Source of the DNA: a virus
Length of the DNA: 20,911 nucleotides
Strand: one strand, 5' to 3'
IMG/VR virus record: IMGVR_UViG_3300023109_000176
Span: 1 to 20,911 of that record
Made by a program: the position numbers and the translations under genes. Of this stretch, positions 1 to 20,911 are shown one piece after another. Under the pieces are notes generated by a model. It saw only the letters and a list, made by a program, of their open reading frames with translations. It was not told where the DNA came from and made no database searches. The first letter of the stretch is position 1. Each line of letters starts with the position of its first letter.

Positions 1-3000
1 AAGAATCAAGAGATTTTAAATTTAATTAAAAAGAAGACTTTAGATGGAGCTAGAGAACTTAAAAAAATGTATACCGCTCAAGGAAAGCAAGCAGGAATAG
101 CAAGCGAAGCTATAAAAGGAGAAGCTGCAACACTATTCGTTATAAATAAATTTCAAGAAAACAGACTATCGAATTTAATCGATTCCGGCAGTCTTGATCA
201 AAAAGCATATGAATTGCAGGTAGAAAAAAACAGAAAAGATGCAGAGGCTGGAATTTTATCACTAAAACAGTTAGAGTCTCAAAAACATTTATTAAAATTA
301 AATCTTAAATCATCCGACGATTATAAGAACATAATAAGGATACAGGAGGCGAAATTTAAATCGGAAGTTGTATCTTCTGAATTAGCTGCAGACGAAGCGG
401 CTAGAAGAGAAGAATTTTTTAAGCACGAAGATACAAGAAAGCGCCTAGTGGAAAGCCAGCTAAAGACTGAGATTAGCAACGCTTCTATAGCCGCAAGAAT
501 TAATCAACAAAAAGTTAAGCTACTTCTTGAAAACGATAATTTGCAAAAAATGGCAAAATCTCAAGTTCAAGAAGAATTAAACTCTTTACAGCAAACCGTC
601 TTAGTGGCGTCTGAAAGATCCAAAATTCTAGAAAACAATAAGGGCATATCCGAGGCATTAGAAAGAGGAAAAAGACTGCAGGAACTGATCAACAAGAAGG
701 ATGAGATTATAGCGGCTCAAAAAAATGCCACAATTAGTATAGAAGAACTAAAATCAAAAGTTCTGGCCGATATAACCCTAGAAAAGACGAATAAAATATT
801 GTCTGCTAGAGAAAATGCAATAAGGTTATCTCTGTTGTCTAGTTACGATGAATTAAATAATCAAGTGTCCCTGGAGTTAGAAGAAGAAATAACTTCAACT
901 CAAACATCAGCACTTCTGGCTTCTGAAAAAGCTATTATTTTATCCAAAATGGGCGAGCAAGGAAAACTACTTTCAAAAGCAAATGAACTTCAAGAAGCCT
1001 CAAATAAACTATTGGAACTTGAAAATGCGATACGAAAAGCTGGCGTAAGTAAATCTCAGCTTGCCCTAAACAGCGCGACAAGTATAGCCACCGAACAGTC
1101 TTCGTCTATATTGGCCACACGAGAAGCGGCGATGAAATCACTTCTGACAGGTAGCCCTGAAGACGCTTTGGCTTTCGCGCAAAGCCTAGAGGAAACAAAC
1201 AAGCAAATAAATTTTGGAACTAGGGCTGTAGATAGGCTGAGATCTAGAATGGCTGAAATGAACGTCTCCGCAGCTAACCTTGGGGCAGATTTAATAGATA
1301 TCGGAATAGATGAAACAAGAAGTGGAATAATACAATTGTTTGATGATATTGGGTCTGGATCAAAAACAGCAGAAGAAGCTTGGGAAAAATTCGGATTAAA
1401 CTTAGCTAAAAAATTATTAGACAGATTTACTGAAGCAAATGTAGATAGAATAATATCTAATTTAACTTATGCTTTTACAGGGGTGGGTGGTAATTCTGAG
1501 GCCGATAAAATGGCTGGATTAAATAATCATTTAGTTAATCATTTAAGTAAACTTAGTGGCGTGCTGTCCGAAGAAATAAAGGAGGTTGCTAAATTGGAAG
1601 CAACGATAAGAAATGGAATAGATATTAGGACCGAAAATTTAGACAAAAAGTTGCTAGGAATGGCGGAAACACTGAAAACTCCTATTAAGGATTTAAGCAC
1701 AGAGATAACTATACTTTCCAAAGCGGTCAAAGAAGATGTTATACGCAAGGATATAGATGGAAGTAGAACTGGAGAAGCTCCGGGGATGACTGATATCACA
1801 GTGAAAAGACCGACAGTTACTACTGAACCTGATCCACAAGGCAGAAGAGGTGGATTCATAGAGCCAATACTACCAGAAATTATTAAAAAAGAAATAAAAG
1901 AAATAAAACCAAAACCTTTAGAAAAAGAAAAAAATGTTCCTCATCAAAAGGCCGAGGATTTCAACAAGAAAATAATCAATAAGACAGCTGAATTAGAGGA
2001 ATTGAAAACACGCCAAAAATACCTCACTGAAAATCCTGGTTTGGTAGATAAATTTATTTCATTATTTAGTTCTAATTCTAGCAACACCCCAAGTGGTCGT
2101 TTTAATTGGGAAATTTCGCAAGGCGTACAAGAAGGGGAAGAGAAGGTGGGGTTCACCAAGCACATGGAAAACGTAAAGCCATTAAATAAAGAGGTTTTTG
2201 ATGCTATGCTTAATGAAGGGATTGGGGATAATGGGTATTATTCAGATAAGTTTTATCAGGCTCATCAAGTAATGGGCAAAATGTCTTCAAGTATCAAATC
2301 AGACCAAGGAAGCCTAAATTCGAAAAATAGATTTATTTCCGAATATGAGGAAAAATTACACAATTTAAATACTGACACTACAGGCAATTTAAAAGTTAAA
2401 GAAATTCAAAAAACTGAAGCAATGCTTGAGAAGGTAAAAAAAGAAGCAGAACTTCTAAAAACAAACATTGCCGACGCCAGAGTTACCTATGAATCAGCTT
2501 TACATGTAATTGGAGAGCAAGGTCGAGTAGAACAAGAAATCCTAAGGATCAAGCAAGAGCTGAAAGCGCTTGAATTACAGCGCAAGAATAAACTTCAGTC
2601 GCAGCCTGAAAACAATCAAGGAATAAACTTGGTACCAGTAACCCCGGACTCGAAACATTCCGGAGGAATAATCCAGCACTTTGCAGAAGGAGGTTTCGTA
2701 AAAGGGCCAGCTGGAGTAGACAAAGTTCCTGCTATGTTAACTGCAGGAGAATATGTTATACCTAAAGATAGAGTAAGAGAACTAGCTCAGGGTGGAGCTA
2801 TACAAAACCTTCAGGCGGGAGGAAAGAGTCGACTACAGGCAGGACTGGAAGGCGTGGCGCAAACAGCGGTAATGGCATATACCACAAAGAAAATAGGGGA
2901 ATCTATCAATAAAAAACAAGACAAACCCCCCACATTTGATAAAAAGAAATTTGAAAGATTAGATTTAGGTTCTGATGTTAAATTAAGAAGTGGCGACCCA

Positions 3001-4275
3001 AGATTAAGTGGAAAAGCCATAGCTCAAGACCCTGTAATGAAAGAATATGGGGATCACTTGCTTGATTTAGCCGCCTACCGCGTGCAACAAAAAAATGAAA
3101 AATTCCAAGGCAGAATGCAAACACTTGGATCAATATTGGGGGCAGTGCAATCTTTTATTGTCGCAGAGACGACCTCTATATTAGCTGAGCCGATTAATAA
3201 ATATGTGGTTAGCCCAATCAGAGAAAAAATAGGTCAAGCTAAAGACAGCGTCATGAACTGGACCGGAGAGACTTTTGGTAAATATGGAGATGAGTATAGC
3301 CAAGCTGCTAAAAAAGCAAAATACGCAGGCAACCAATTAAATTATTCTGATTTTAGTAAGTCAATGAAGGCTTACGAAAAAAGCACTGGATATAAAGGAT
3401 TCTACGAGGGCCCTTCGGGACTTAATTACATTAATGAATCTGGCGGCATATACGATATGAATAAAATTTCTCATATTAGATCCATGGAACCTCACGAACA
3501 AATAAAAGTTCACGGTTTTCATGCTTCAGGTGCGCCTGTCACAAACGCAATGCAAAGCTTTACTCTTGCAGAATCCCAACAGGTTGTGAAATCGTTCAGT
3601 GGTTCTGGAATAAAAGATTATCTTAAAAATATAGCTGTTAGAGAAAACTCCGGAGGTGCTATACCAACAATGCTTACAGCGGGAGAAGCTGTTATACCAA
3701 ACGATATAGCAAAGAAAATAGGCTACGACTCTTTAGGTAAAATGAATTCAACAGGAAGTGTCCCTATTGTCACAGGAAAAAGTGGGGTTGATCAGGTAGG
3801 ACCTGTAGGTTTAAATTCTGGAGATTTCGTAATCAAGAAAAGTTCTACGAATAAATTAATGCGTGAAAACCCTCACATGATGAGGTTTGCAATGCAAAAC
3901 CCAAAAGGATTCAAGAAGGCTGAAAAAAGATATCAAGGAGGCATAGTAGGAACATCTGGTTCACAATCAACCCCGTCCTTTGGAGGGAATACAGCTACTG
4001 CAACACAGAAATCTTCGCCTGCGGTTAATAGAGTTCAGCCTTTAATTGAGGCAGCACAGCAAAATAAAAGTAATGCAATAACTCAGTCCACAAATAATGA
4101 TGTAACAAACAATATTAATGTAAATGTTAAAATCGACCAAGCTGGAAACGAAAAAGTTTCTTCAGACGCTGGAGTTAATTCTGTCGAGCAAGAGCAGGCC
4201 TTGGCAATGAAAATAAAAATGAAAGTAATGGAAGTTATTAGGGAAGAAAAAAGGATAGGTGGGGAACTTAGCTAA
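1..4275 (+). CDS. Tail tape measure protein, 5'-truncated by window edge (lambda gpH-like)
   Basis: Tape measure proteins set tail length, fill the tail tube and help DNA enter the cell. The frame is open from base 1, so the ATG at 67 is probably internal and the true start lies upstream; 1424 residues are visible. Numbering from base 1, about 1-420 is Lys/Glu/Gln-rich coiled coil. About 430-495 resembles the lambda tape-measure C-terminal domain (IIQLFDDIGSGSK, then AWEKFGLNLAKKLLDRF). A second coiled coil covers about 650-870. Three copies of a typical tape-measure motif (GPAGVDKVPAMLTAGEYVIP and variants) start near 887, 1216 and 1255. A hydrophobic stretch at about 1042-1065 may be membrane-active. 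The end (NNINVNVKIDQ, then IREEKRIGGELS) is the usual tape-measure C-terminus. The stop overlaps the next ATG by one base (TAATG). Family call is firm; the size of the missing part is unknown. Confidence 0.93.
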   Translation, partial: KNQEILNLIKKKTLDGARELKKMYTAQGKQAGIASEAIKGEAATLFVINKFQENRLSNLIDSGSLDQKAYELQVEKNRKDAEAGILSLKQLESQKHLLKLNLKSSDDYKNIIRIQEAKFKSEVVSSELAADEAARREEFFKHEDTRKRLVESQLKTEISNASIAARINQQKVKLLLENDNLQKMAKSQVQEELNSLQQTVLVASERSKILENNKGISEALERGKRLQELINKKDEIIAAQKNATISIEELKSKVLADITLEKTNKILSARENAIRLSLLSSYDELNNQVSLELEEEITSTQTSALLASEKAIILSKMGEQGKLLSKANELQEASNKLLELENAIRKAGVSKSQLALNSATSIATEQSSSILATREAAMKSLLTGSPEDALAFAQSLEETNKQINFGTRAVDRLRSRMAEMNVSAANLGADLIDIGIDETRSGIIQLFDDIGSGSKTAEEAWEKFGLNLAKKLLDRFTEANVDRIISNLTYAFTGVGGNSEADKMAGLNNHLVNHLSKLSGVLSEEIKEVAKLEATIRNGIDIRTENLDKKLLGMAETLKTPIKDLSTEITILSKAVKEDVIRKDIDGSRTGEAPGMTDITVKRPTVTTEPDPQGRRGGFIEPILPEIIKKEIKEIKPKPLEKEKNVPHQKAEDFNKKIINKTAELEELKTRQKYLTENPGLVDKFISLFSSNSSNTPSGRFNWEISQGVQEGEEKVGFTKHMENVKPLNKEVFDAMLNEGIGDNGYYSDKFYQAHQVMGKMSSSIKSDQGSLNSKNRFISEYEEKLHNLNTDTTGNLKVKEIQKTEAMLEKVKKEAELLKTNIADARVTYESALHVIGEQGRVEQEILRIKQELKALELQRKNKLQSQPENNQGINLVPVTPDSKHSGGIIQHFAEGGFVKGPAGVDKVPAMLTAGEYVIPKDRVRELAQGGAIQNLQAGGKSRLQAGLEGVAQTAVMAYTTKKIGESINKKQDKPPTFDKKKFERLDLGSDVKLRSGDPRLSGKAIAQDPVMKEYGDHLLDLAAYRVQQKNEKFQGRMQTLGSILGAVQSFIVAETTSILAEPINKYVVSPIREKIGQAKDSVMNWTGETFGKYGDEYSQAAKKAKYAGNQLNYSDFSKSMKAYEKSTGYKGFYEGPSGLNYINESGGIYDMNKISHIRSMEPHEQIKVHGFHASGAPVTNAMQSFTLAESQQVVKSFSGSGIKDYLKNIAVRENSGGAIPTMLTAGEAVIPNDIAKKIGYDSLGKMNSTGSVPIVTGKSGVDQVGPVGLNSGDFVIKKSSTNKLMRENPHMMRFAMQNPKGFKKAEKRYQGGIVGTSGSQSTPSFGGNTATATQKSSPAVNRVQPLIEAAQQNKSNAITQSTNNDVTNNINVNVKIDQAGNEKVSSDAGVNSVEQEQALAMKIKMKVMEVIREEKRIGGELS
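2659..2770 (+). repeat. Tape-measure Gly/Pro motif, copy 1
   Basis: Coding repeat within the tape measure gene. It encodes SGGIIQHFAEGGFVKGP followed by AGVDKVPAMLTAGEYVIPKD. This is the full version of a motif common near the C-terminal part of siphophage tape measure proteins. Shorter versions recur at 3646-3705 and 3763-3837. Similarity is at the protein level and is seen by eye. Confidence 0.8.
3646..3705 (+). repeat. Tape-measure Gly/Pro motif, copy 2 (shortened)
   Basis: Encodes NSGGAIPTMLTAGEAVIPND. It matches the second half of copy 1 (PAMLTAGEYVIPKD) closely, while the GPAGVD part is missing. The same gene holds the full copy 329 residues earlier. Confidence 0.75.
3763..3837 (+). 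repeat. Tape-measure Gly/Pro motif, copy 3 (diverged)
   Basis: Encodes PIVTGKSGVDQVGPVGLNSG followed by DFVIK. It keeps the GVDxV and L-x-x-G-[ED]-x-VI pattern of copy 1 but has diverged. Copies 2 and 3 are about 20 codons apart. Confidence 0.6.
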
Positions 4276-6544: not shown

Positions 6545-9500
6545 ATGGATATTGGGGTTAAAGAGTGGGAGCTTGATAAAGCTTACAATGTTGATGACAT
6601 TATTAGGGTTGGTAATTTATCATTGCCAAGTTATGTCGATTTAAATGATCCGAAAGATGAAGATGGATTTTTTCATTTAAGTACTATTAGGGTGGGATTA
6701 GATTCAGGGGAAAAGGTTATCACTGATGATAATTATAAAGTTGTTATAGATAATAGAACCAAAGGAGATTTCTTTGAGAGAATAGATTTATCAGTAAGCC
6801 AAGAAGTTAACTTTGGATATTATTTTCCTGTGAATAAAAACATAGGATACAAAGTCAGGTCTCTTGTAAAAAAGATAGACGAAAACTCAGAAACCGCGGA
6901 CCCATACAATACATTTATAGAAGAAAAGGAGGGTAAAATAAATCTAAATACTTCTATAGGTGTTGGGGTTGGTATAAGATTTTACGACCAAAATCAAGAT
7001 GAAATTAAAAACGTAGACAGAAGGAAAACTACAAGGTTAATGGCTTCAAGCGAATTAAGCCATAAAGAATATTACAATGTACAAATAGATATAAGGCCTG
7101 AGGATATACCCTCTGATGCCGTCTCCGCATCTGCCGTCATTTTAATATATGGTTTACGCAAAGGAGGGTTCACTTTTAGAAAGATAAAATCAACCAATCT
7201 TAGCGAATTTTTTTATTGCACTAAAAAGCATACCTCTAGTTTAGCTAGAATGCCTAATGCTAATGGAGATGATTTTTGGACTCAAGATTTTAAGTGGCGC
7301 CCTTCTTATGGGTCAAAGTCTGATTTCACCGCGATCAACGACGATATGAAAATGGGGGAAGGCTCTGATTACGTCAATAATTTGTCGATAAACTCCTTGC
7401 CAATGAAGTTGGATGTTTTATTTGACAACAGAACCGATAAGCAAGCTAAAGCTATTATGCACTTCTTACAAGAAAAACATTTTGCTTATGAATCAACTTT
7501 TGGTATTGATTACAAGGGTGATAGGCTGGCATCTAGTGAAGTATCTTATTTTAATTTTATTTATACAAATCCTTATAGAGAAGATTTAAAATTTGTATGT
7601 AGTGAATTTAGTCATAATATTAAGTACAGGAATAATAATGCTATATCTGCTAGGTTTGTTTGTGATACGGAGAGCACCTTAAGGAGTGTAGAAAGTCATT
7701 CTGGTTTTAATAAAAGACTGGATGTTATATTAAAAATTTTTATAGACGAAGAAACTCATTTTAAAAAAGGTGAAAAGATAAAATTAAGCACTTTCCCTAA
7801 ACCAAAAGATAAATTTGATGAAGAAGGAAACCTTATAGAGTCTGGCCTAGAGAAAATGGGTGAAGTTATATATATAGAAGCCTCTGAGTATGATGAAAAC
7901 GGAAACCCGAATATAGCTAAAATAAAATTTAGAGAAGATCAGGATTTAAATCAACTAGACTGTATATCAATTACAAATTTAGAATCAGAAGAGTCTATAT
8001 ATAATTTAGATAAAGCTAATATAATTAAAGTAATCGACAATAAAACATTCTTAATAAAGTTTCATGTTGAAAGTGGAAGCTATGATATTAGCGATGTTGG
8101 AGGGTATGATCATTTACAAGACGACGAAGAACTTTTCTTTGAAACAGACGACGGAAGATCTTTGACTGTAACCAACGAAGAAGTTAGCGCTCCTGTAGAT
8201 GTAAGAAAGCTTATGAGGTGCCCCGAGGATTGCTTATCCACTTCTCCGTTTTTCCCGGAAAGCTTAGATGAAATCACCAGTGAACTTACGGACCCTAGCA
8301 CTGGAGGAAAAAGAAAAAGAATTATATTTTTAAAAGATTTTAGACAGCTACAGTTAGAAGAACCTATCTCTAGGGAGTCAACATCTATTACTGTCACTCC
8401 CTTGTCATCGTTTACATTAAAAGATAAAGATGATTTTGATTTATTAATTCCTGCTGTAAGGGGTAGAAGTAGTATATACCTTAGAGACCCAGACCGTATA
8501 CCCAAATTCCCTTGGGCTCAGGTAAGAAATTTAGAGCATAGACCTAGTTTAACGTTTACATTAAATGCGACCCCAACCAACATAAAAAGTGATTTCGTTA
8601 AATACTATGAAAAAAGATATAAAAAAGAAATCAACCAAAACATGTCTACCTTTACGGTTGTGTTTGATCAAAGAGATGATGAAGAGACTCTGGAGATTTT
8701 ACAATTTCTAGAAAGCCATCTTGGTTATAAAAAGTTCAAGTTCCCAATGCCGCGACCTCATCAATCTGACGCTAGTTCTATAACAACTCAATCCAGAAAG
8801 GGTGGTTCTGCTTTCTATTGTCCAAGTTGGTCGCATGAAATAGTATACAAAAATAACCATAAGATAACTGCGACTTTTATAGAATCCTCGACATCTATAA
8901 ATGAAAATCTTTCTGACTTTAAGGGTCCTTGTTATAGTGCGGCGCTTTACAATCCTGTCACTAAACACGAATTGTGCACTTTTGCATCTGTAGGAGTTGG
9001 TATGATGTGCGAGTCTACCGAAAATATGGTAAACATAAATGGAGGTTTTAATGGAAAAAGGAAAGCTGTTGATATAGTATTCGTGGTTGACACTACTGGC
9101 AGTATGACATATAGAAATATTAGCGGAGAAGGAACGAACGGTAATTATTCTTATTCAAAATACATGTCGGCGATTGATGTAATCATGAAAATGGTCACAT
9201 CTTATGGGAAGCTAGTGATGCCTGGAACTTTTGATTACGCAGGACTCATCGAAGCGCCTGCCATATCTCAAAGTGAACCACCTTGGCCTGTAGACGAAAA
9301 CTTAACCACCCTCATAGATCCAGAAAAAGAAGATATTAATGAAGATTTAAGGTTAAAAGGTTACGATACTAAAAAGCTAGAAGAATTCTCTATAAAAATA
9401 GAAAAAGATAGAGTGAATTTTGGATTAATATTGATGGGTCATGGTAATACACCAATAGATTTATCAATCTACCCTCAATCTTTTGATAAGAAAATTTTTT

Positions 9501-10885
9501 ACGATACAGCTTTAGCATGGAGAGGGGCTGGTGTTCAATACGGGCAGGGTGAGTTCTTAACGGATGCTTTAAGTAAGGCTGTAGCTCAACTTTATAATAG
9601 TCCTAGAGCTCAACACGTTTCAGACAGAATAATTGTAGTTCTTAGCGATGGAGTTCTTACAACCGGGGACTGGCGTCATGAAGGTGGATTTTATAATAGA
9701 TATAGCCCAACTTCCTTGAATATAGCTGGATCTTTAAGAAAAGGAGGAGCTTTATCAAAAAGAAGACCGAGTGATGCGGTTTTAGGCGATAGTTCTTACG
9801 CTTATGGGCCGGCAAATCCATTAGCTAAACTGAACGAATACGAAAATCAAAATAACCCAGAAACTGAACAAAAACCTGAATGGTATTCTGAAGAAGTTCC
9901 TACGATTTTAATGTTTGCATCAGTAGGTAGTTCACCCTATCTTTCTAGCCATAATAAAAAATATGTTTATGATTATGATCCAAATAAAACTGAGGAACCT
10001 CAATTTCATTTCCCTATAAGCGCAGAACCCTCGAAGGAGGTTGCTAGGCTATTAAGTTTAGTTCAAACAATTTCTAGAATAACATCTGACACTGGTTATG
10101 AAAATTTATTCTGCGTTAGATTAAAGAATTGCGGACCAAACCCAATTAAAATACTTAATACCATCGTAAACCTAAAAAACGAACCAAGTGAATTAAAATG
10201 GACAACCTCAGTATTAAATTCAGGAATCCCAAGAGATGGTAATTACAGGGTAGTTACGGAAATCGAGAAAGAGCATAACATAGTCAACATAAAAAAGGGA
10301 TATGGCGGGCAATTCCATGGAGACCCTAATAATGTTTCATTTTTTCAAGAAAGCGCTTACGGAAGCAAGCAATCAAACACTTTATGGGAAAATTTTAACA
10401 CTGAATATGAAGTAATCAGAAATGGAGAAGTTTTTGAAATTAATGGGGGTTGGCATAGTAGGCAATCATACAAAATAGAAACTGAAGAAAATTTTAAAAT
10501 ACAACTTGATGATGGGTCTTTCATCGCAACCGACCCCATTTTAGTGAACCCTCCAAGAACTAGAGGTGTTTATAATACCGGAGTAGCATTTAGGGGTATG
10601 CCCATAAGATTATTCAAAACCACATCCGAATTGGAAATAGTAGATTACAATATAGGTGGGGTTGATTTAAGTAAATGGGATGAGGGACAAGAGGGTAATT
10701 ACGACCATTTACCTATACTGCAAAACGAAGAGGTTATTGATCTATTTTTCGGGTTGAGAATCGGAAGCTTAAGAAGCATAGGGGATACGATAGAATTAGT
10801 GTTTAACACTCAAGATATGAAGCATAAAAAAATGGACTGCTACGGAAAAGTGGAAGTTCCAGTTCAGGTAGAACCTATAGATTAG
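6545..10885 (+). CDS. Giant multidomain tail-tip protein: two gpM-like domains plus VWA adhesion domain (1446 aa)
   Basis: Lambda gpM is about 109 residues and joins the tail tip. Here two gpM-like domains lie at about 243-375 and 660-785. Both have a strand pair, a helix like AIMHFLQEKHFAYES or EILQFLESHLGYKKFKFPMP, and a closing strand pair like HNIKYRNNNAISARF. Residues 8-22 (W8, Y14, D18) and 222-246 (C225, H229, W245) together look like a CBM5/12-type sugar-binding module, split by a beta-sandwich (about 50-215) resembling CBM_4_9 folds. A VWA domain covers about 840-1185, with metal-site residues D849, T851, S853, T1006 and D1035 and the strand RIIVVLSDG; an insertion of roughly 90 residues follows its first helix. 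Ig-like strands at about 1188-1240 and 1350-1446 close the protein. It starts directly after the previous TAA. Domain calls are by eye. A host-surface adhesin role is inferred. Confidence 0.8.
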   Translation: MDIGVKEWELDKAYNVDDIIRVGNLSLPSYVDLNDPKDEDGFFHLSTIRVGLDSGEKVITDDNYKVVIDNRTKGDFFERIDLSVSQEVNFGYYFPVNKNIGYKVRSLVKKIDENSETADPYNTFIEEKEGKINLNTSIGVGVGIRFYDQNQDEIKNVDRRKTTRLMASSELSHKEYYNVQIDIRPEDIPSDAVSASAVILIYGLRKGGFTFRKIKSTNLSEFFYCTKKHTSSLARMPNANGDDFWTQDFKWRPSYGSKSDFTAINDDMKMGEGSDYVNNLSINSLPMKLDVLFDNRTDKQAKAIMHFLQEKHFAYESTFGIDYKGDRLASSEVSYFNFIYTNPYREDLKFVCSEFSHNIKYRNNNAISARFVCDTESTLRSVESHSGFNKRLDVILKIFIDEETHFKKGEKIKLSTFPKPKDKFDEEGNLIESGLEKMGEVIYIEASEYDENGNPNIAKIKFREDQDLNQLDCISITNLESEESIYNLDKANIIKVIDNKTFLIKFHVESGSYDISDVGGYDHLQDDEELFFETDDGRSLTVTNEEVSAPVDVRKLMRCPEDCLSTSPFFPESLDEITSELTDPSTGGKRKRIIFLKDFRQLQLEEPISRESTSITVTPLSSFTLKDKDDFDLLIPAVRGRSSIYLRDPDRIPKFPWAQVRNLEHRPSLTFTLNATPTNIKSDFVKYYEKRYKKEINQNMSTFTVVFDQRDDEETLEILQFLESHLGYKKFKFPMPRPHQSDASSITTQSRKGGSAFYCPSWSHEIVYKNNHKITATFIESSTSINENLSDFKGPCYSAALYNPVTKHELCTFASVGVGMMCESTENMVNINGGFNGKRKAVDIVFVVDTTGSMTYRNISGEGTNGNYSYSKYMSAIDVIMKMVTSYGKLVMPGTFDYAGLIEAPAISQSEPPWPVDENLTTLIDPEKEDINEDLRLKGYDTKKLEEFSIKIEKDRVNFGLILMGHGNTPIDLSIYPQSFDKKIFYDTALAWRGAGVQYGQGEFLTDALSKAVAQLYNSPRAQHVSDRIIVVLSDGVLTTGDWRHEGGFYNRYSPTSLNIAGSLRKGGALSKRRPSDAVLGDSSYAYGPANPLAKLNEYENQNNPETEQKPEWYSEEVPTILMFASVGSSPYLSSHNKKYVYDYDPNKTEEPQFHFPISAEPSKEVARLLSLVQTISRITSDTGYENLFCVRLKNCGPNPIKILNTIVNLKNEPSELKWTTSVLNSGIPRDGNYRVVTEIEKEHNIVNIKKGYGGQFHGDPNNVSFFQESAYGSKQSNTLWENFNTEYEVIRNGEVFEINGGWHSRQSYKIETEENFKIQLDDGSFIATDPILVNPPRTRGVYNTGVAFRGMPIRLFKTTSELEIVDYNIGGVDLSKWDEGQEGNYDHLPILQNEEVIDLFFGLRIGSLRSIGDTIELVFNTQDMKHKKMDCYGKVEVPVQVEPID

Positions 10886-10886
10886 T

Positions 10887-11999
10887 ATGACATTTTTGAG
10901 CCCAGAAGACTATCAGATTAAATTTTCATCCTTGGATGAAGCCGTTGTTATTAATAAGAAATTTTTATCCAAAGAAGCTAGTGAAACACTAATTACTACT
11001 GCAGATAATGGTTTGCTCATAGAGGTTGATGGGTATGAGACAAAGAGTATTCAGTGTGATTATTTATGTAGAGAAAACCTGGTTGACTCTGGGAAATTCA
11101 CACTCATAAATACTTGTTCTATGCCTATAACGGTTACAGGTTTCACTGTTTCAGATTCTGAAAGGTTTTCTTTGTTTGATCATGAAAAATACAAAGATTT
11201 AAATATATATAGTAAAGAGATCGTCGAGGAATTGCCATTCACTATAGAGCCGAAGAAAAAGAAAACGGTTAATACTTTCTTTCACCCAAAATATGAAGAA
11301 TTACAATATGGGAACGAGGGAACTATTCTAAATAGAAATGGAGATAAATTTGGGGCAAAAGTAGAAATATACCCAGGATTTAAAATATCAAATTGTGAAT
11401 CAAATGATATATGCGACGCAAGCCTCACATTAACAGGAGAATTTTTATGCGAAAGAAGTGAAGAGGGTCTAGAGTTGCTAAAAAATAAACATAACTTTGA
11501 AACACCAGGAGAACTTCCGGAAACTTTTGACCCTAATATGGATGCAATTCCTGACCCTAGTGCTGATTTATTTATATGCCCTATCCTTGAAGATGAATAT
11601 AGTTATACTATAAATTTTACTTCTCAAAATGGTGATAGCGCAACAGCTATAGGTGAATTTAGGGTTAATGAACAAGGAAAATGGGAAACTAAAATACAAG
11701 TTAGTCAAGAATTTGATGGTGAATCCCAACAAACAGACTGGCAAGTGGGTCATAGTAAGGCTGAAGCGGGTAATACATCGTCATGGATTATAGTTCCAGA
11801 CGTCGAGAATAATATGTCTGAATATCCAATTATATTTGCGCAAGGCGTAGATGGAGGTACAACTTATTACTCTATACATGAGTATGAAGATACATCCACA
11901 AACCAGGAGAACTTAACTACCAAACCCGATGAATTCTTGGATCTTGTCGACGGAAACCTACCTGAGACAACGCAACCAGACTGCGTTCCATTAGGTTAA
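10887..11999 (+). CDS. Tail-associated protein with ASH/Hydin-like Ig domain (370 aa)
   Basis: Residues about 65-188 follow the pattern of ASH/Hydin-type (choice-of-anchor D) Ig-like domains. An opening strand LINTCSMPITVTGFTV is followed by SERFSLF, then PFTIEPKKKKTVNTFFHPKY, the hallmark hydrophobic-Pro-x5-x-F-x-P stretch, and a closing strand ASLTLTGEFLCE. Similar strands occur near residue 1188 of the preceding gene product (VRLKNCGPNPIKILNTIV), so the two may stack or share origin. The N-terminus has several Cys residues (in IQCDYLCRE). The second half (about 225-370) is acidic and beta-rich, with no recognised family. There is no signal peptide or membrane segment. It starts one base after the previous stop. 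It sits between M-like and L-like genes, where lambda has none, and is probably a tail-tip decoration or spacer (inference). Confidence 0.6.
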   Translation: MTFLSPEDYQIKFSSLDEAVVINKKFLSKEASETLITTADNGLLIEVDGYETKSIQCDYLCRENLVDSGKFTLINTCSMPITVTGFTVSDSERFSLFDHEKYKDLNIYSKEIVEELPFTIEPKKKKTVNTFFHPKYEELQYGNEGTILNRNGDKFGAKVEIYPGFKISNCESNDICDASLTLTGEFLCERSEEGLELLKNKHNFETPGELPETFDPNMDAIPDPSADLFICPILEDEYSYTINFTSQNGDSATAIGEFRVNEQGKWETKIQVSQEFDGESQQTDWQVGHSKAEAGNTSSWIIVPDVENNMSEYPIIFAQGVDGGTTYYSIHEYEDTSTNQENLTTKPDEFLDLVDGNLPETTQPDCVPLG

Positions 12000-12004
12000 T
12001 AATT

Positions 12005-13042
12005 ATGAGAGATACAACTGGAAACGTAAAGTCACTTTTTGATATATCACCTTCTGCTATAGTTTGTTTTTACAAAATAGACTTAAAAGGAAAAGGTAGT
12101 TATTTATTTCACGCCGGAGAAAACGGATACAGGAAAGGAATAGTATTTAATGGAGAAAAGTATGATTTTTTCCCTATAAAAGTAGAAGGTTTTGAGACTC
12201 AGGGAGATGGAAGATTGCCTAGACCGAAAATGACTTTCTCAAATCATCAAGGAAATATATCTATAAGATTGGGCGCGTTTAAAGATTTTATAAATTATAA
12301 AGTTACAAGAATCAAGACATTCGTTAAATTTTTAGATAATGAAAATTTTCCTGACAATATTAATCCTCACGCCGATCCAAATCCTGACGCTTCTTTTTCA
12401 GAGGATGTTTTTTATGTGAATCAAAAAACAAAAGAAGATGACAATATAGTTGAATTTGAATTAGTATCACTTTTAGAACTACAAAATGCTAAGGTCCCGG
12501 CCCGAACAATGTACTCTAATTACTGTAGTTGGCAATATAGATCAAACATAGGCTGCAGATATAAAGGTAAGCCTATTGCAGACGGAAAAAATAAAAGATT
12601 CGTACCAAGTGGTTATAGTGGAGCTATGGTTGGATCCGAAGTATATATAACAGGAGAAGTATTAGATCAAGAATTTGCAAAAACAGGAGAAGATGGATTT
12701 TACTTGGAATGGGACAGGTCGATTAAATATAATAAAGGAGATGTGGTTAGAATTGAACCTTTCGATCAAGATAAAGATATATATCCAGCTAGTATATATG
12801 TATGTCTGGAAGACGGAACTAGATCCTACCCTGTAACAGACAGAAAAAACTGGGTGCTTGATGCGTGCGATAAAACTCTATGCGGTTGCCGATTAAGATT
12901 TGGAGAGAATGCAACTGGCGCAGGGGGCGGATCAAGAGGTGATGTATCTCTTGGAGAAGAAGGGCAGCTTTGGACAGAAACGGGGGGTAATGGTTTACCT
13001 TTTGGCGGTTTCCCTGGAATTGACCCTTATGACTTTAAATAA
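12005..13042 (+). CDS. Minor tail tip protein, lambda gpL-like, iron-sulfur cysteines (345 aa)
   Basis: The protein matches lambda gpL along its length: IVCFYKIDLKG near residue 19, VEGFETQGDGRLPRPKMTFS near 60-80, an FVKFLD strand near 107-112, and the cysteine region. Cysteines C174 (NYCSWQY), C184 (IGCRYKG) and C288, C293, C295 (ACDKTLCGCRLRFG) align with those that bind a 4Fe-4S cluster in lambda gpL (established for lambda). Lambda gpL is about 232 residues. Most of the extra length lies between C184 and C288, where W236, Y242, D246, C267 and W283 fit a CBM5/12-type sugar-binding module. The Gly-rich tail after C295 ends FGGFPGID, like lambda's FGGF. A weak TTAGGT lies about 8 bases before the ATG. 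The last 14 bases overlap the next gene. gpL joins the tip complex beneath gpJ. Confidence 0.9.
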   Translation: MRDTTGNVKSLFDISPSAIVCFYKIDLKGKGSYLFHAGENGYRKGIVFNGEKYDFFPIKVEGFETQGDGRLPRPKMTFSNHQGNISIRLGAFKDFINYKVTRIKTFVKFLDNENFPDNINPHADPNPDASFSEDVFYVNQKTKEDDNIVEFELVSLLELQNAKVPARTMYSNYCSWQYRSNIGCRYKGKPIADGKNKRFVPSGYSGAMVGSEVYITGEVLDQEFAKTGEDGFYLEWDRSIKYNKGDVVRIEPFDQDKDIYPASIYVCLEDGTRSYPVTDRKNWVLDACDKTLCGCRLRFGENATGAGGGSRGDVSLGEEGQLWTETGGNGLPFGGFPGIDPYDFK

Positions 13043-16700: not shown

Positions 16701-19036
16701 ACCGCGCCAGATTTAGAATCAAATATGGTAATGAAGGGGAGCAGTTATATTCTACAGATATATATATCTTTGGAGTAGCTACATCTTCATATCAAAAGGA
16801 TGTCAAAATATATTTCCCACCAAATCCAAATCAAAGAGATCGTATAATTAAAGTATTTAAATTAAATAGAGAAAGAAATTTAGTGAAAGAAGGCGAGCAA
16901 GCCGCGAGATATAAAGAAAAAATGTCTTTAGCTTCTATAACCGAAATTACGCCTGCCATACTGAATTATCCTAATTCCGTAATCATAGGAACAAGAATAA
17001 ACGCTAAAGATCAACCCAACATACCTGAAAGAAACTACAACTTGAGATTAAAAAAAGTCCAAGTTCCAAGCAACTACGATACTGAAACACGAGAATATAC
17101 AGGTAACTGGAATGGCGTATTTCATCCAGAACTTAAATGGACTAATAATCCAGCCTGGTGTCTTTACGATTTAATTTCAAATAAAAGATTTGGTGTAGGT
17201 AAATTCGGGATCAAGCCTGAGAATATAGATCGTTGGACATTATATAAAATAGCAAAATATTGTGACGAAATAGTTCCGACAGGTTATAGCCCGAAGTATA
17301 AAAAAAGAAAAGCCATAAGAGGGGAAGATGATAACGGATTAGTTACTTATAGTTTTGATCTAAGCGTAGAAGATTTCAGGCTTGAATTTCAACATGTTAA
17401 TAAACAGTTAGCTGTTTTTCATTCAGACGGCTCTTATCAATCAATAAAAATTGTAAGCGCAGATCCAGCTTCAAAAAAAATATCGTTATATAATCAGCCT
17501 AATAGTGAAGATTTTGAATGCGCAGTATCTATCGACTATCCTATTTTAGAGCCAAGGTATACTTTGAATGCATTCATAATGAACCAAGAAAATGCCTTTA
17601 AATTGATTAATGAATTTGCAGTGATTTTTAGGGCATATGCTTATTGGTCTGGTGGCGCTATAAACTTTTTTCAAGATGAAAAGAAAGAGGCAGTAATGCT
17701 TTTCTCTAACAATAATATTTCAAATAAAGGTTTCTCGTATTCAAGTACACCAAGAACCTCAAGATCTAATTCATGCAATATTAAATATATTGATAGGTAT
17801 AATAAGTATAGACCAAAAATAGAGCACGCAGAAGATAGGGAGGCTATCGAAGAAAACGGTTTTATTGAACAATCAATCGACGGCTTCGGGATTACATCTC
17901 AAGCTCAAGCAAAAAGGGCTGCGGAATTTATCGTGAAAGGCGCAAACCTTGAAACTGAAATGATATCTTTTTCCACAAATATGGCGGGTGCTTATCTTAA
18001 ACCCGGAGATGTTATAGATGTATTAGACAATAAAAAGACTGTGGGCAGGTTTGCCGGGAAAATCATAGAAGCGGAAGTTCACCCTAGAGGTTTTTTTGCA
18101 GAATTAACAATTGACTATCCAATTTACACGTTCATCGATAAGTATGATAAAGAAACCTGGAAGACTATAAAAATTTATCAACCAACAGGAAATGAGACCA
18201 TTGAGTCTTTGGATTCAACAGAAGAAGTAACAGACGAAAAAATAAGTAACATAAGAGCTAAACAGATAGGAGAGTTCCTTATATATGATACCTCAGAAGA
18301 TAATACAAAACTTAAAATATTTAATAATGTATTTTCTTTTGTAACCGGAGAGTACCAATGGACAGAGGCCTTAAAAGATGCAAAAGAAAAAGGGGGTCAG
18401 TTGGCATCTATAGAAGATGAAGACACGCAATTTTTAATAGAAGCAATTCTACCAACAGGAGAAGTAGGATGGATAGGTGGATACAATAAAGAAACGCCTC
18501 CTCCTGAGGAATTGATATGGTATACTTCGTCTTCCTGTGCAGACGATAAAATTACGTACTCTAATTGGTCTGAAGATTTTCCTAAATTTACAAATCAGTT
18601 AACCACAGACTTGGAGTCAGAAATACAGCCAATCGTTACTGACGATCCTGAATTAGGTATATCTGCAGACGTAGATGGTTCGTTTGGTAACTTTTTAGCC
18701 GTTAGCGGCTCCGATGATGAATCAAAACATGGAAGCTGGATTCATATGGAACATACAGTCCCCACAGGATACGTTTTTCAAAATTACGGTAATAATTTAT
18801 TAGATAATGTGGAGGACTCAGAAGGGGCATCTTTTTATTTAGAAGATGACGTTAATTACGCTAATGCTAAACAATATAAAATATTAAATATTACAGAGGA
18901 AAGCAATGGCATATTTAATATACAAGGATTAGAGTATAATGTAGATAAATTTGATAACGTTGAGAAAGACTTATCAATTAAAAGACCGAATTACCCTATT
19001 ATATATAACGAAAACAGCTCTTATAATCAGAGTTAA
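13772..19036 (+). CDS. Central tail tip / host-specificity protein, gpI-gpJ fusion with C-type-lectin-like domain (1754 aa)
   Basis: Residues about 1-165 resemble lambda gpI: a ubiquitin-like start (KVFLHGELGKRFGSEWDLHV), a hydrophobic helix (LGALVMTAITTAASMYI, about 89-105), and the end NRYQQGNSIPVGYGTLKVGP. gpJ-like sequence begins near 381 (LKSLDLVGEGEIGGF) and is clearest at about 1090-1170 (KVQVPSNYDTETREYTGNWN, AWCLYDLISNKRFGVGKFG) and 1340-1452 (GDVIDVL). About 866-960 is an Ala/Ser-rich stretch with two hydrophobic segments inside a gpJ beta domain. About 1516-1672 looks like a C-type-lectin-like domain (WTEALKDAKEKGGQLASIED, GWIGG, YSNWSEDFP), without the classical cysteines or a clear WND motif. 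The gpJ signature returns at about 1700-1737 (YKILNITEESNGIFNIQGLE). gpJ binds the host receptor and forms the tip hub in lambda. The stop overlaps that of the converging gene. Family call is firm; inserted-domain calls are by eye. Confidence 0.92.
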   Translation: MKKVFLHGELGKRFGSEWDLHVRSPAEAVHALFANSPEIEKYLNRKHQENIYYGIKKEGSSNFAEKEEYFLDSNKDFHVFPLPQGASLGALVMTAITTAASMYISKKIAEAMERDDDTLQAQTKSYIYNGTQNRYQQGNSIPVGYGTLKVGPNVISSCSVNYDFDSEKGKIFNFSNGLYSLIPEYHKYHISDLGPLFSCFAQNSFDGSSKYKFIDPAFQYLSNTIADGAFGTTDGIYGGFEEVEAQKDRFVTMKKKGNAIGGYYYYTYNFSKGVNQAFLGNFHELGNWYPSLRLMTEEERTAAEAFRLAVSEGNALRSAYVCLQSKPLLESSEEQKIFYPISFVEKLPEHLQAGDSPSFLEESKSFPLHVGQRWRGALKSKGVGWHKLESTSVLKSLDLVGEGEIGGFADTDGSQLLFDDSSVANVTPESLDSINLRNEKDDYLKAVYLDDTPVKEVSFDRISQGLDAYNINEFDIDISRNEDRIGSEDQKLLEPQYLFTAYTKEINGTLYGPRTINKKDLAAIVPSNEFVEKKIYDNGEYVTYQEEGAKNAGTYVVKVGFNEKFDPSGNYYSGDLAAESESIIYEGEPDDADFYAVDSAMNEYEIFSGEYVNYISEGHEDNEFYEQGDKVRCKNTSGTMGYYEMGPNANKFLGIYNQNSDYTDKKGHFLMDDIPSSQPTANSPLFIITGNTNGHESINDIASGLSAIVGRTSNYSNDPMFVILNPQFNEAIVDGVINIYSADADDEGVVSNTIIDSITYPDDVVEELDITPGEELDIEQKLWKKIEIKSPIKVEDSTGLDITEDLAIFEELVGQNLDKIITKRFSEENYLSHTIINSLVEEAYVSLRIDELGYVYQGDEVEVEYKIGELWTILLGLIGVYHAFRASSTGAYSVSSLVVGKAATAAVPSATPNVGAATALGLLSSHAYATSAWASSNAAASTALIAGIATIVLAVVLANHRFRIGTKIENSGEIWPNRARFRIKYGNEGEQLYSTDIYIFGVATSSYQKDVKIYFPPNPNQRDRIIKVFKLNRERNLVKEGEQAARYKEKMSLASITEITPAILNYPNSVIIGTRINAKDQPNIPERNYNLRLKKVQVPSNYDTETREYTGNWNGVFHPELKWTNNPAWCLYDLISNKRFGVGKFGIKPENIDRWTLYKIAKYCDEIVPTGYSPKYKKRKAIRGEDDNGLVTYSFDLSVEDFRLEFQHVNKQLAVFHSDGSYQSIKIVSADPASKKISLYNQPNSEDFECAVSIDYPILEPRYTLNAFIMNQENAFKLINEFAVIFRAYAYWSGGAINFFQDEKKEAVMLFSNNNISNKGFSYSSTPRTSRSNSCNIKYIDRYNKYRPKIEHAEDREAIEENGFIEQSIDGFGITSQAQAKRAAEFIVKGANLETEMISFSTNMAGAYLKPGDVIDVLDNKKTVGRFAGKIIEAEVHPRGFFAELTIDYPIYTFIDKYDKETWKTIKIYQPTGNETIESLDSTEEVTDEKISNIRAKQIGEFLIYDTSEDNTKLKIFNNVFSFVTGEYQWTEALKDAKEKGGQLASIEDEDTQFLIEAILPTGEVGWIGGYNKETPPPEELIWYTSSSCADDKITYSNWSEDFPKFTNQLTTDLESEIQPIVTDDPELGISADVDGSFGNFLAVSGSDDESKHGSWIHMEHTVPTGYVFQNYGNNLLDNVEDSEGASFYLEDDVNYANAKQYKILNITEESNGIFNIQGLEYNVDKFDNVEKDLSIKRPNYPIIYNENSSYNQS
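16369..16665 (+). other. Ala-rich hydrophobic hairpin coding insert within gpJ-like region
   Basis: Encodes two hydrophobic segments, GELWTILLGLIGVYHAF (residues about 868-884) and ALIAGIATIVLAVVLAN (about 943-959), joined by about 58 Ala/Ser/Thr-rich residues. Lambda gpJ sequence flanks both sides without an equivalent at this point. It may be a membrane-inserting hairpin released during DNA delivery (inference). Confidence 0.55.
18318..18786 (+). other. C-type-lectin-like domain coding segment nested in gpJ
   Basis: Residues about 1516-1672 of the gpI-gpJ fusion carry the C-type-lectin order: a WTEALKDAKEKGGQLASIED opening helix, then FLIEAI, GWIGG, YSNWSEDFP, FLAVSGSDDESKHGSW and GYVFQNYG. 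Disulfide cysteines are missing and no clear calcium-binding EPN or WND motif is present, so a receptor-contact domain of protein-binding type is as likely as a sugar binder. Confidence 0.65.
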
Positions 19037-19051
19037 GAAATTAAACTTAAC
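19032..19051. repeat. 6-bp inverted repeat at the convergent gene junction
   Basis: GTTAAG at 19032-19037 and CTTAAC at 19046-19051 form a perfect 6-bp inverted repeat with an 8-base A/T loop. It contains both overlapping stop codons. The stem is weak (two G-C pairs) and neither strand has a following T-run, so it is not a convincing intrinsic terminator, though it is the only palindrome noted at this end of both operons. Confidence 0.45.
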
Positions 19052-19833
19052 ATGATCCTAGTCTCTTTTGCTGGTATATCTTCCCAGCGTTCTGCATTTT
19101 TAATAGAATCATTTTGATAAATTCCGTCAACTTTATCTTGCCACCATTTTTTAATATGCTCTTTTCTGAATTCTTCAAACGAATCGCAACCCAAAGATTC
19201 TTTTGCTTTTTTCTCTAATAAGCTTGATGGGCTTAATGGATTACCTGCGCTCTTTTTAGGTGTAGAGATAGATTGCCCTGATTCGGATTTATCTATTTCA
19301 TCGTCACCAACAATATGAACTTGCAAAAAGTTTCTAACACATCTTACGAAAGCTCTATTGCAAGCTATAGTCTCAAGAAATTTCGTGGCAAAACTACTAG
19401 TATTATTTAATGTAGCATTAGCCATATCTTGAAAGGCAACAGGCTCTCCGAACGTTTCGTAATTAGGAAGAAAGGTTACCGTACAAATTACAGAAACGTG
19501 ATTTTCTTCGCATTTTACTACCTCGTAAGATACGTCGGAAAAACCTCTTAGTTTTGCTAGCTCTTTAATTCCGCTAAGTTTAATTAACAATTGATAGTCT
19601 GATAATCCATCTATAGACCTAGGCATATCTTTACCCCTTGATTGGAACCAACTTTTATTAGGAAACAGATGTTCTCCGCCAACCATCTCTCTCCAGTTAA
19701 TAGATCCATCTTCGTTGAAGCTATATTGAATATTCTTAAGTAAACCGTTTTCGTCCCTGCTAAAAAGGTTTGGCCCTGATGAATTGTCTATTGGTTGACT
19801 TTTACTCTCTGTACTATTTTTTGATTTTGCCAT
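19033..19833 (-). CDS. Probable single-strand-annealing (Rad52/Erf-like) recombination protein, low confidence (266 aa)
   Basis: The core (residues about 55-185) has an amphipathic helix region, a strand series VSYEVVKCEENHVSVICTVT, then FLETIACNRAFVRCVRNFL, a helix like the RA-rich helix of phage annealing proteins, and IVGDDEI. A Ser/Lys-rich linker (about 185-210) leads to a short helical C-terminus (FEEFRKEHIKKWWQDK, then KETRIMLSLIS). Core plus linker plus small C-terminal domain is common among phage annealing proteins that pair single DNA strands in replication and recombination. No catalytic motif is expected and no signal peptide is seen. The ATG overlaps the upstream minus-strand gene by 20 bases. 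A GGGAAGAGG stretch is too far upstream (about 25 bases) to be its ribosome site. It could instead be a conserved phage hypothetical of other function; the fold call rests on pattern alone. Confidence 0.45.
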   Translation of the reverse strand: MAKSKNSTESKSQPIDNSSGPNLFSRDENGLLKNIQYSFNEDGSINWREMVGGEHLFPNKSWFQSRGKDMPRSIDGLSDYQLLIKLSGIKELAKLRGFSDVSYEVVKCEENHVSVICTVTFLPNYETFGEPVAFQDMANATLNNTSSFATKFLETIACNRAFVRCVRNFLQVHIVGDDEIDKSESGQSISTPKKSAGNPLSPSSLLEKKAKESLGCDSFEEFRKEHIKKWWQDKVDGIYQNDSIKNAERWEDIPAKETRIMLSLIS

Positions 19834-20911
19834 GATTATATATATTTAAGTGCTGCACCTCTTCCCAGAATTCATCTGAATCAATCAACTTTTGATGATC
19901 CTCTGTTTTTTCTATATTTGACTTCCATGCAGCTTTACTATAATATTGTTTATTATTTGATATTAATACTTTATTACTATGATAGTATGTATTATTGCAT
20001 AGTTGATCAAGAAAGTCAAGGTCTTTTTTCTTGGTAGGGTTATACTCTTCAATTGTATAATCAAAATATTTAAATCTTAAAGAATTTATATCTTCTAAGT
20101 TTTTACTTATCAGGTTGTAATTTATTTTTAATTTAGTTAGGTTCTCTAAGTATTTTATTGGGAAATTTTCTTCGTTAACGAATATAGTCATTCCTGCTAT
20201 ACTAGATTTGTATTTAGATATAATGTTTATATCTATGGGTTTATCTATCATTAAGTTAACCCTGCGCTTAAGCCAAAAAGGTAGAGATTCTTCAAGTAAT
20301 TCGTAATCACATCTGAGGTTCAGGAGGTTCTTGAACTTCAGGTTTTCGTCAGGAATAAAATCAGGGACAATTTCTACAATTTTATTATTGTAATGATTCC
20401 CTATATTTAATGTTTTATAATGATTTAGGTCGTTTTCAATATCTAGAAAGGATAATATTTCCCGCGCGATATCTTCAGGGTTTATCTCGTTAATTCTTTT
20501 TGGGTTTTCAGAAAAAGAAAAGGAAGGTTTTATTTCGGAAAAATCTGGGCTTAACAATTTGTATTCATTTTTTTTATTCCATACAGGGTTCGCAATAGAA
20601 GGAAATAAATTAGAGAAAAGACAAACCATTTTTTTGTCATGATGGCTAGCTATATGCATCGGTAAACTGTCTATACCAAAATGCAATAAGCAATTACTAA
20701 TGATATAGGACATTTGCTTGAATGTTGATCCTCTGGTATCTAGGTCACATTGATTGAATTCTGGATCCTTGGGCCCTCCTACTTGAACTATTTTAATGCT
20801 TTCTTTTGATAAATAGTTTTGTATTAATTCAAAAACTATAGACCAATAATCATAGTTCTTGGATTCCACTTCCTCGCCATCAGTATGGAAAGTGATATAT
20901 TTATCATAAAC
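19814..20911 (-). CDS. Glycosyltransferase family 9-like protein, 5'-truncated by window edge
   Basis: The frame stays open to the last base (VYDKYITFHTDGEE precedes the GTG at 20869), so that GTG is unlikely to be the start and the N-terminal part lies outside the window. The visible 365 residues begin in the second half of a GT9/heptosyltransferase-like fold: YITFHTDGEE, KIVQVGGPKD, LDTRGSTFKQMSYIISNCLL, then GIDSLPMHIASHHDKKMVCL, the D-S-x-x-M-H-I-A motif that contacts the nucleotide-sugar in this family. A further region (about 190-365), rich in Asn, Lys and Tyr, has no recognised family; it may hold the acceptor or a second enzyme domain. It would modify lipopolysaccharide, DNA or a virion protein; the acceptor cannot be told. 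It is the first gene of the minus-strand pair visible here and overlaps the next by 20 bases. Confidence 0.75.
   Translation of the reverse strand, partial: VYDKYITFHTDGEEVESKNYDYWSIVFELIQNYLSKESIKIVQVGGPKDPEFNQCDLDTRGSTFKQMSYIISNCLLHFGIDSLPMHIASHHDKKMVCLFSNLFPSIANPVWNKKNEYKLLSPDFSEIKPSFSFSENPKRINEINPEDIAREILSFLDIENDLNHYKTLNIGNHYNNKIVEIVPDFIPDENLKFKNLLNLRCDYELLEESLPFWLKRRVNLMIDKPIDINIISKYKSSIAGMTIFVNEENFPIKYLENLTKLKINYNLISKNLEDINSLRFKYFDYTIEEYNPTKKKDLDFLDQLCNNTYYHSNKVLISNNKQYYSKAAWKSNIEKTEDHQKLIDSDEFWEEVQHLNIYNHGKIKK

Follow-up and report, generated by a model that had tools for sequence, protein, structure and literature searches.

A predicted VWA domain with an altered MIDAS-like site belongs to an exchangeable block of a gpM-type tail-tip protein in uncultured phages

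The 20,911-nt window, as we call the whole stretch of DNA analysed here, comes from an uncultured virus record and contains a lambda-like tail gene cluster, in which a tail-tip protein of 1446 aa (6545..10885, + strand) carries a predicted VWA domain behind two gpM-like domains. Comparison of related sequences indicates that the VWA domain forms an exchangeable cassette with the C-terminal part of the protein and the greater part of the following gene. The best overall explanation, to which we assign a probability of about 0.6, is that the VWA domain, a fold by which cells grip other proteins, is the working part of an exchangeable tail-tip adhesin cassette, used for host recognition.

The cluster opens with the tape measure gene (67-4275), followed by two tail genes and by the gene of the 1446-aa protein. 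The next gene (10887..11999, + strand) codes for a 370-aa protein, weakly similar, below threshold, to the Ig-like domains of Cep192/TMEM131L; it is mostly included in the cassette, whose right border is the gpL homologue (12005..13042, + strand; PF05100, E 4.1e-47). On the 3' side of gpL are found gpK, with JAB and NlpC/P60 domains, and a fused gpI/gpJ gene. The gpM-family gene is therefore located between the tape measure and the gpL-K-I/J genes, in the order known from lambda, with the addition of the extra gene between M and L and of the two tail genes after the tape measure. In the C-terminal part of the gpI/gpJ fusion, near the end of the gpJ homologue, a C-type-lectin-like region is observed (18272-19036; PF00059, sub-threshold, E 0.011). 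Two genes on the minus strand adjoin the cluster: the first (19033-19833), whose 3' end shares 4 bases with that of the gpJ gene, codes for a 266-aa protein with no Pfam or PHROG match, and the second (19814-20911) for a glycosyltransferase family 9-like protein (sub-threshold, E 0.0037).

The 1446-aa length of the product of ORF 6545-10885 agrees with the preliminary description, and so does its assignment to the gpM-like tail-tip proteins. The second gpM-like domain (residues 664-778; 8534..8878, + strand) matches the Pfam family Phage_min_tail (PF05939) with an E-value of 1.6e-14 and a score of 54.6 bits, above the cut-off of 39, and lambda gpM (8iyk_M) in a profile search of the PDB (E 0.004). 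The first copy (residues about 280-385; 7382..7699, + strand) was recognized by hhalign against the second, with a probability of 97.6% and an E-value of 3.2e-12, and the order of strand, helix, strand and strand is the same. A tail-tip protein with a tandem gpM duplication is thus supported. Between the protein start and the first gpM copy, a jelly roll (residues 80-245; 6782..7279, + strand; pLDDT about 75-88) resembles the carbohydrate-binding modules of families 4 and 16 (Foldseek match 2zey, probability 1.00, TM by target 0.54), and may be a second glycan binder on the same chain. As the model of the N-terminal part is poor overall (pLDDT 55), only this region and the strand order were used from it. 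The C-terminal beta domain (residues 1188-1442; 10106..10870, + strand), in which an NCGP motif is invariant, is weakly ASH/PapD-like, its match to CEP192 (6fvi) having a probability of only 0.38.

The VWA domain of the window scores 22.4 bits against Pfam (E 1.6e-4), below the curated cut-off of 23.8 bits, which is a detection threshold and not a defining structural feature of VWA. Relatives were gathered through gpL, gpM and VWA alignments, for a total of about 30 distinct uncultured sequences; PF00092 was matched by 10 of the 17 that were scanned (E<0.1, best 1.4e-5). A scan with the single VWA sequence found no close relatives, and in PDB sequence searches neither the domain alone nor its profile returned a related entry. 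An AlphaFold model of the VWA domain and C-terminus, built from 21 sequences, reaches pLDDT values of about 75-92 across most of the VWA domain, with a few blocks near 62; the overall mean of 69 is due to the C-terminus. The predicted model shows the alternating strand-helix fold of solved VWA domains, and its best PDB match in the fold search was TRAP (4hql, probability 1.00), the next confident one being TEM8 (3n2n, probability 0.99, TM 0.67 by target length). Structure prediction and fold search thus bear out the proposed VWA fold, and on the strength of the model and of the about 30 relatives we consider the VWA domain in this tail protein to be real. It had been placed at 9020-10105 (residues 826-1187), close to the extent of about residues 838-1198 (9056..10138, + strand) that results from Pfam, the relatives and the model. 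Two insertions interrupt the domain. The one between helix 1 and strand 2 (residues 886-955; 9200..9409, + strand), in which all 21 aligned sequences have a PPW motif, had been noticed before but measures about 70 residues rather than 90; the second (residues 1037-1119; 9653..9901, + strand) is larger, directly follows the SDG strand, and consists of a hypervariable loop and a conserved KRRPxD segment.

The exchange of the cassette is clearest in two relatives, L006 and L026, whose breakpoints correspond to 9002..11945 (+ strand) of the window, a position inferred by alignment. On the left side, as far as the codon corresponding to window residue ~820, the two sequences are 99.7% identical in DNA. 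Inside the block, which covers the VWA domain and the C-terminal part and takes in the greater part of the next gene, ending before gpL, amino acid identity is 38% for the VWA domain and 45-58% for the C-terminal part. Starting 60-84 nt ahead of gpL, the DNA of the gpL, gpK and gpJ region is again 99.3% identical. At the left breakpoint two 30-base steps are enough for identity to drop from 30/30 to 19/30 and 9/30; at the right one it is back to 30/30 about 60 bases before gpL. This is an exchange of one block between near-identical phages, as would be expected of a receptor-binding module. An equivalent drop in identity is seen in L024, L027 and L013, with 96-99% identity in the second gpM. 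In a contig from another metagenome (L008), which also holds gpL, the last 1.5 kb of the L006 cassette, about its 3' third, are found at 99.5% identity. An assembly chimera behind the L006/L026 difference is unlikely, since two junctions would be needed and the same 3' part is present in L008. The region L006:4801-10060 and its L026 counterpart form an almost clean natural pair, with one cassette exchanged and flanking tail genes ~99% identical.

Phylogenetic trees point in the same direction. In the gpM tree the window and L059, located on the same contig as L001, are sisters with a support of 100/100, a pairing that the VWA data reject at a cost of 179 log-likelihood units (p-AU 1.5e-47); the p-AU value assumes a group named before seeing the tree, and this group was taken from the independent gpM tree. 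The swap of the VWA block between near-identical phages suggests that it takes part in deciding which bacterium is bound, although the exchange as such shows that the block varies, not why.

The arrangement of the domains also varies among relatives. In L061, L062, L087 and L088 the VWA domain and C-terminus (905-931 aa) are encoded by a gene of their own, adjoining a gpM-gpM gene (1079-1098 aa). No VWA domain was detectable in the gpM proteins of L098-L100, L102 and L103, while in L097 gpM continues directly into the next Ig-like part, without VWA. C-terminal tails are variable among the members, reaching about 390 residues. It seems that surface modules can generally be accommodated at the C-terminus of gpM. 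In L102 (9548-11593) a double-gpM tail protein has a BspA-type LRR_5 region where VWA would be; in L087, a 200-kb contig, a PA14 domain protein is encoded between the VWA cassette and gpL (17413-18255).

The preliminary description had read D849, T851, S853, T1006 and D1035 as a complete metal site (MIDAS). Four of these residues are correctly placed: the first site loop, D849-T-T851-G-S853 (9089..9103, + strand), provides the DxSxS (or DxTxS) motif, kept in all 15 members of the window's type, and the Asp expected after strand 4 is D1035, invariant in the family, within the SDG triplet S1034, D1035 and G1036 (9644..9652, + strand). T1006 (9560..9562, + strand) is not, as it is located in the first turn of helix 4 (1005-1017) in the predicted model, and the position is occupied by T, P, S or A even in the closest members. 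The canonical Thr, in the loop before helix 4, is replaced in the window by a Glu, E1003 (9551..9553, + strand). This assignment rests on L063 and on the helix border, because in hhalign comparisons with two bacterial VWA proteins a good alignment of the Thr loop was not obtained, although strand 1 and SDG were aligned. L063 is a distant fused relative with a textbook DISGS / GGT / TDG site, whose GGT aligns with that of the CLCA1 VWA domain (6pyo) by phmmer; its Thr is found 32 residues before the Asp, and the equal spacing, without gaps, leads to E1003 in the window. The predicted site geometry is accordingly based on sequence spacing and helix position. The site of the window is not a canonical MIDAS.

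At position 1003, the 30 family members have Glu in 15 cases, Lys or Arg in 13, Ser in one (L053) and Thr in L063. The Ser of L053 is accompanied by a Lys at position 849, so that every one of the 14 members that are neither of the Glu nor of the Thr type has one basic site residue (13 at 1003, one at 849), and none of the other 16 has a basic residue at the site positions. A metal cannot be general to the family, as 14 of 30 members have Lys/Arg at 1003 or Lys at 849; these are not 14 independent cases, because the VWA tree shows few events, with one or two origins of Lys/Arg. The distribution of Glu and Lys is nearly clean on the VWA tree, while the gpM tree requires at least four or five changes between these states. 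It is plausible from the residues present that a divalent metal is held by D849, E1003 and D1035 in the Glu type, and that in the Lys/Arg type the side chain acts as a built-in cation.

The complete MIDAS and the metal dependence, as originally claimed, are thus not supported, in view of the Glu at the Thr position of the window's type and of the basic residue in 14 of 30 members. Classical MIDAS adhesion, with D849, T851, S853, T1006 and D1035 binding a metal and, through it, an acidic residue on a host protein, would agree with the conservation of DxTGS and SDG in 14 of the 15 members of this type (the exception, L051, has DGSGS/SDF) and with fold matches that are adhesion proteins; we consider it improbable, given the unconserved T1006 in helix 4, the Glu at the Thr position, and the relatives at the same tail position, with Lys/Arg in place of the Thr and a DxSxS that is often disrupted. 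The change from Thr to Glu could weaken metal-mediated ligand binding rather than support it. The more specific proposal of phage tail-tip VWA adhesins swapped independently of gpJ, with the MIDAS rebuilt either as an acid-rich metal site with Glu or as a metal-free one with Lys/Arg, is tentative, and its chances fall somewhat short of even.

Variability within the domain was expressed in bits. Among members of the window's type the site motifs hardly vary (DTTGSM 0.22 bits, SDG 0.15 bits), while the loops beside the site, at 1.67, 1.98 and 2.09 bits, are the most variable segments of the domain. The VWA fold places these loops on one face, and a fixed site surrounded by variable loops fits a binding face. 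The same loops bear on the possibility that the domain has an assembly or structural role, joining tail-tip subunits or shaping the collar with no host contact. Many VWA domains mediate complex assembly, this one is encoded beside gpM and gpL, and its strongly conserved PPW, RRP and NCGP segments suggest structural constraint; nevertheless, this role appears unlikely for a domain that is exchanged between tails with about 99% identity in the neighbouring gpM, gpL and gpJ, is absent in some relatives, and is most variable in its site loops. Exchange and hypervariable surface loops would fit any recognition conflict, including an escape from antagonists (masking, grazing or defence recognition) with the receptor unchanged. 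The tail-tip position, beside adhesin-like domains such as the CBM-like one and the PA14 of L087, points instead to attachment, and makes such an escape very improbable.

The adhesin reading can be detailed as follows. In lambda, six gpM copies, which adopt two conformers, form a ring of 3-fold symmetry (PMC10721106). By analogy, the tandem duplication suggests a trimer of doubles: as each chain has two gpM units and the lambda ring six, three chains could build a six-unit ring of the lambda type, between the tail tube and the 3-fold hub. The ring would anchor the VWA domain and the Ig-like C-terminus around the tail tip, where the face with D849/T851/S853, E1003 and D1035, edged by the hypervariable loops, most likely touches a bacterial surface molecule. 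In the window's type, with Glu in place of the usual Thr, a divalent cation is probably bound at the acid-rich site and gives order to this face; in the other type, Lys or Arg at 1003 probably does the job of the cation without metal. Specificity would change by the swap of the whole cassette between gpM and gpL. Of the metal-dependent grip on the host surface proposed earlier, the surface grip is thus favoured, indirectly, by the block swaps and the hypervariable loops near the site, while metal dependence as stated is not. The real receptor binder may alternatively be gpJ, with its C-type-lectin-like region.

The phages carrying the cassette, all uncultured, recur in many metagenomes and are apparently marine. 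No isolate of this VWA-gpM group was found among 50,697 phage records; the tblastn matches to Erwinia phages were discarded as chance, because no VWA core is present in the aligned region and the protein carries an ILEI domain. Scanning bacterial genomes with the VWA profile gave no match, and with the gpM profile one 6.8-kb contig, binned as Flavobacteriaceae, which is too weak to name the host. If the main reading is true, host recognition in these phages, which have no cultured member, would extend beyond gpJ and fibres to the gpM collar, and the group would show, as variants found in nature, the retention of a classic metal-dependent adhesion site, its modification, and its substitution by a charged side chain.

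In the open-access literature searched, a VWA domain in a phage tail tip was not found, and virus VWA proteins are described only elsewhere. Those of haloviruses Hardycor1 and HVTV-1 are encoded in a replication/accessory region, beside an AAA ATPase (PMC7911831), and the VWA protein of Vi01-like phages is listed under classes other than tail structure (PMC10892097). These domains are also virus-encoded, but the halovirus ones are located outside the tail module, unlike that of the window. With MIDAS-type VWA domains (TEM8/ANTXR1, TRAP, CLCA1 and the PilB pilin adhesin) the window family shares the fold, the DxTxS loop and the SDG after strand 4, and differs in the Glu, or Lys/Arg, in place of Thr, in the two long insertions and in the phage tail setting. 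Lambda gpM, the distal tail protein (PF05939), has the same fold family, by Pfam and PDB profile, and the same M, L, K, I/J gene order; it is composed of 109 residues, in contrast to a 1446-aa chain with two gpM copies plus CBM-like, VWA and Ig-like domains. Tailed phages are known to exchange receptor-binding modules, as in the mosaicism of tail fibres and of the gpJ tip, where, likewise, one block is sharply exchanged and the tail clusters are otherwise near-identical. The block of the window group hangs instead on gpM, and gpJ is unchanged in the clearest pair, L006/L026. Taken one by one, VWA domains, gpM and the exchange of receptor modules were known before; what is new here is the location on gpM, the altered site, and a cassette exchange without gpJ.
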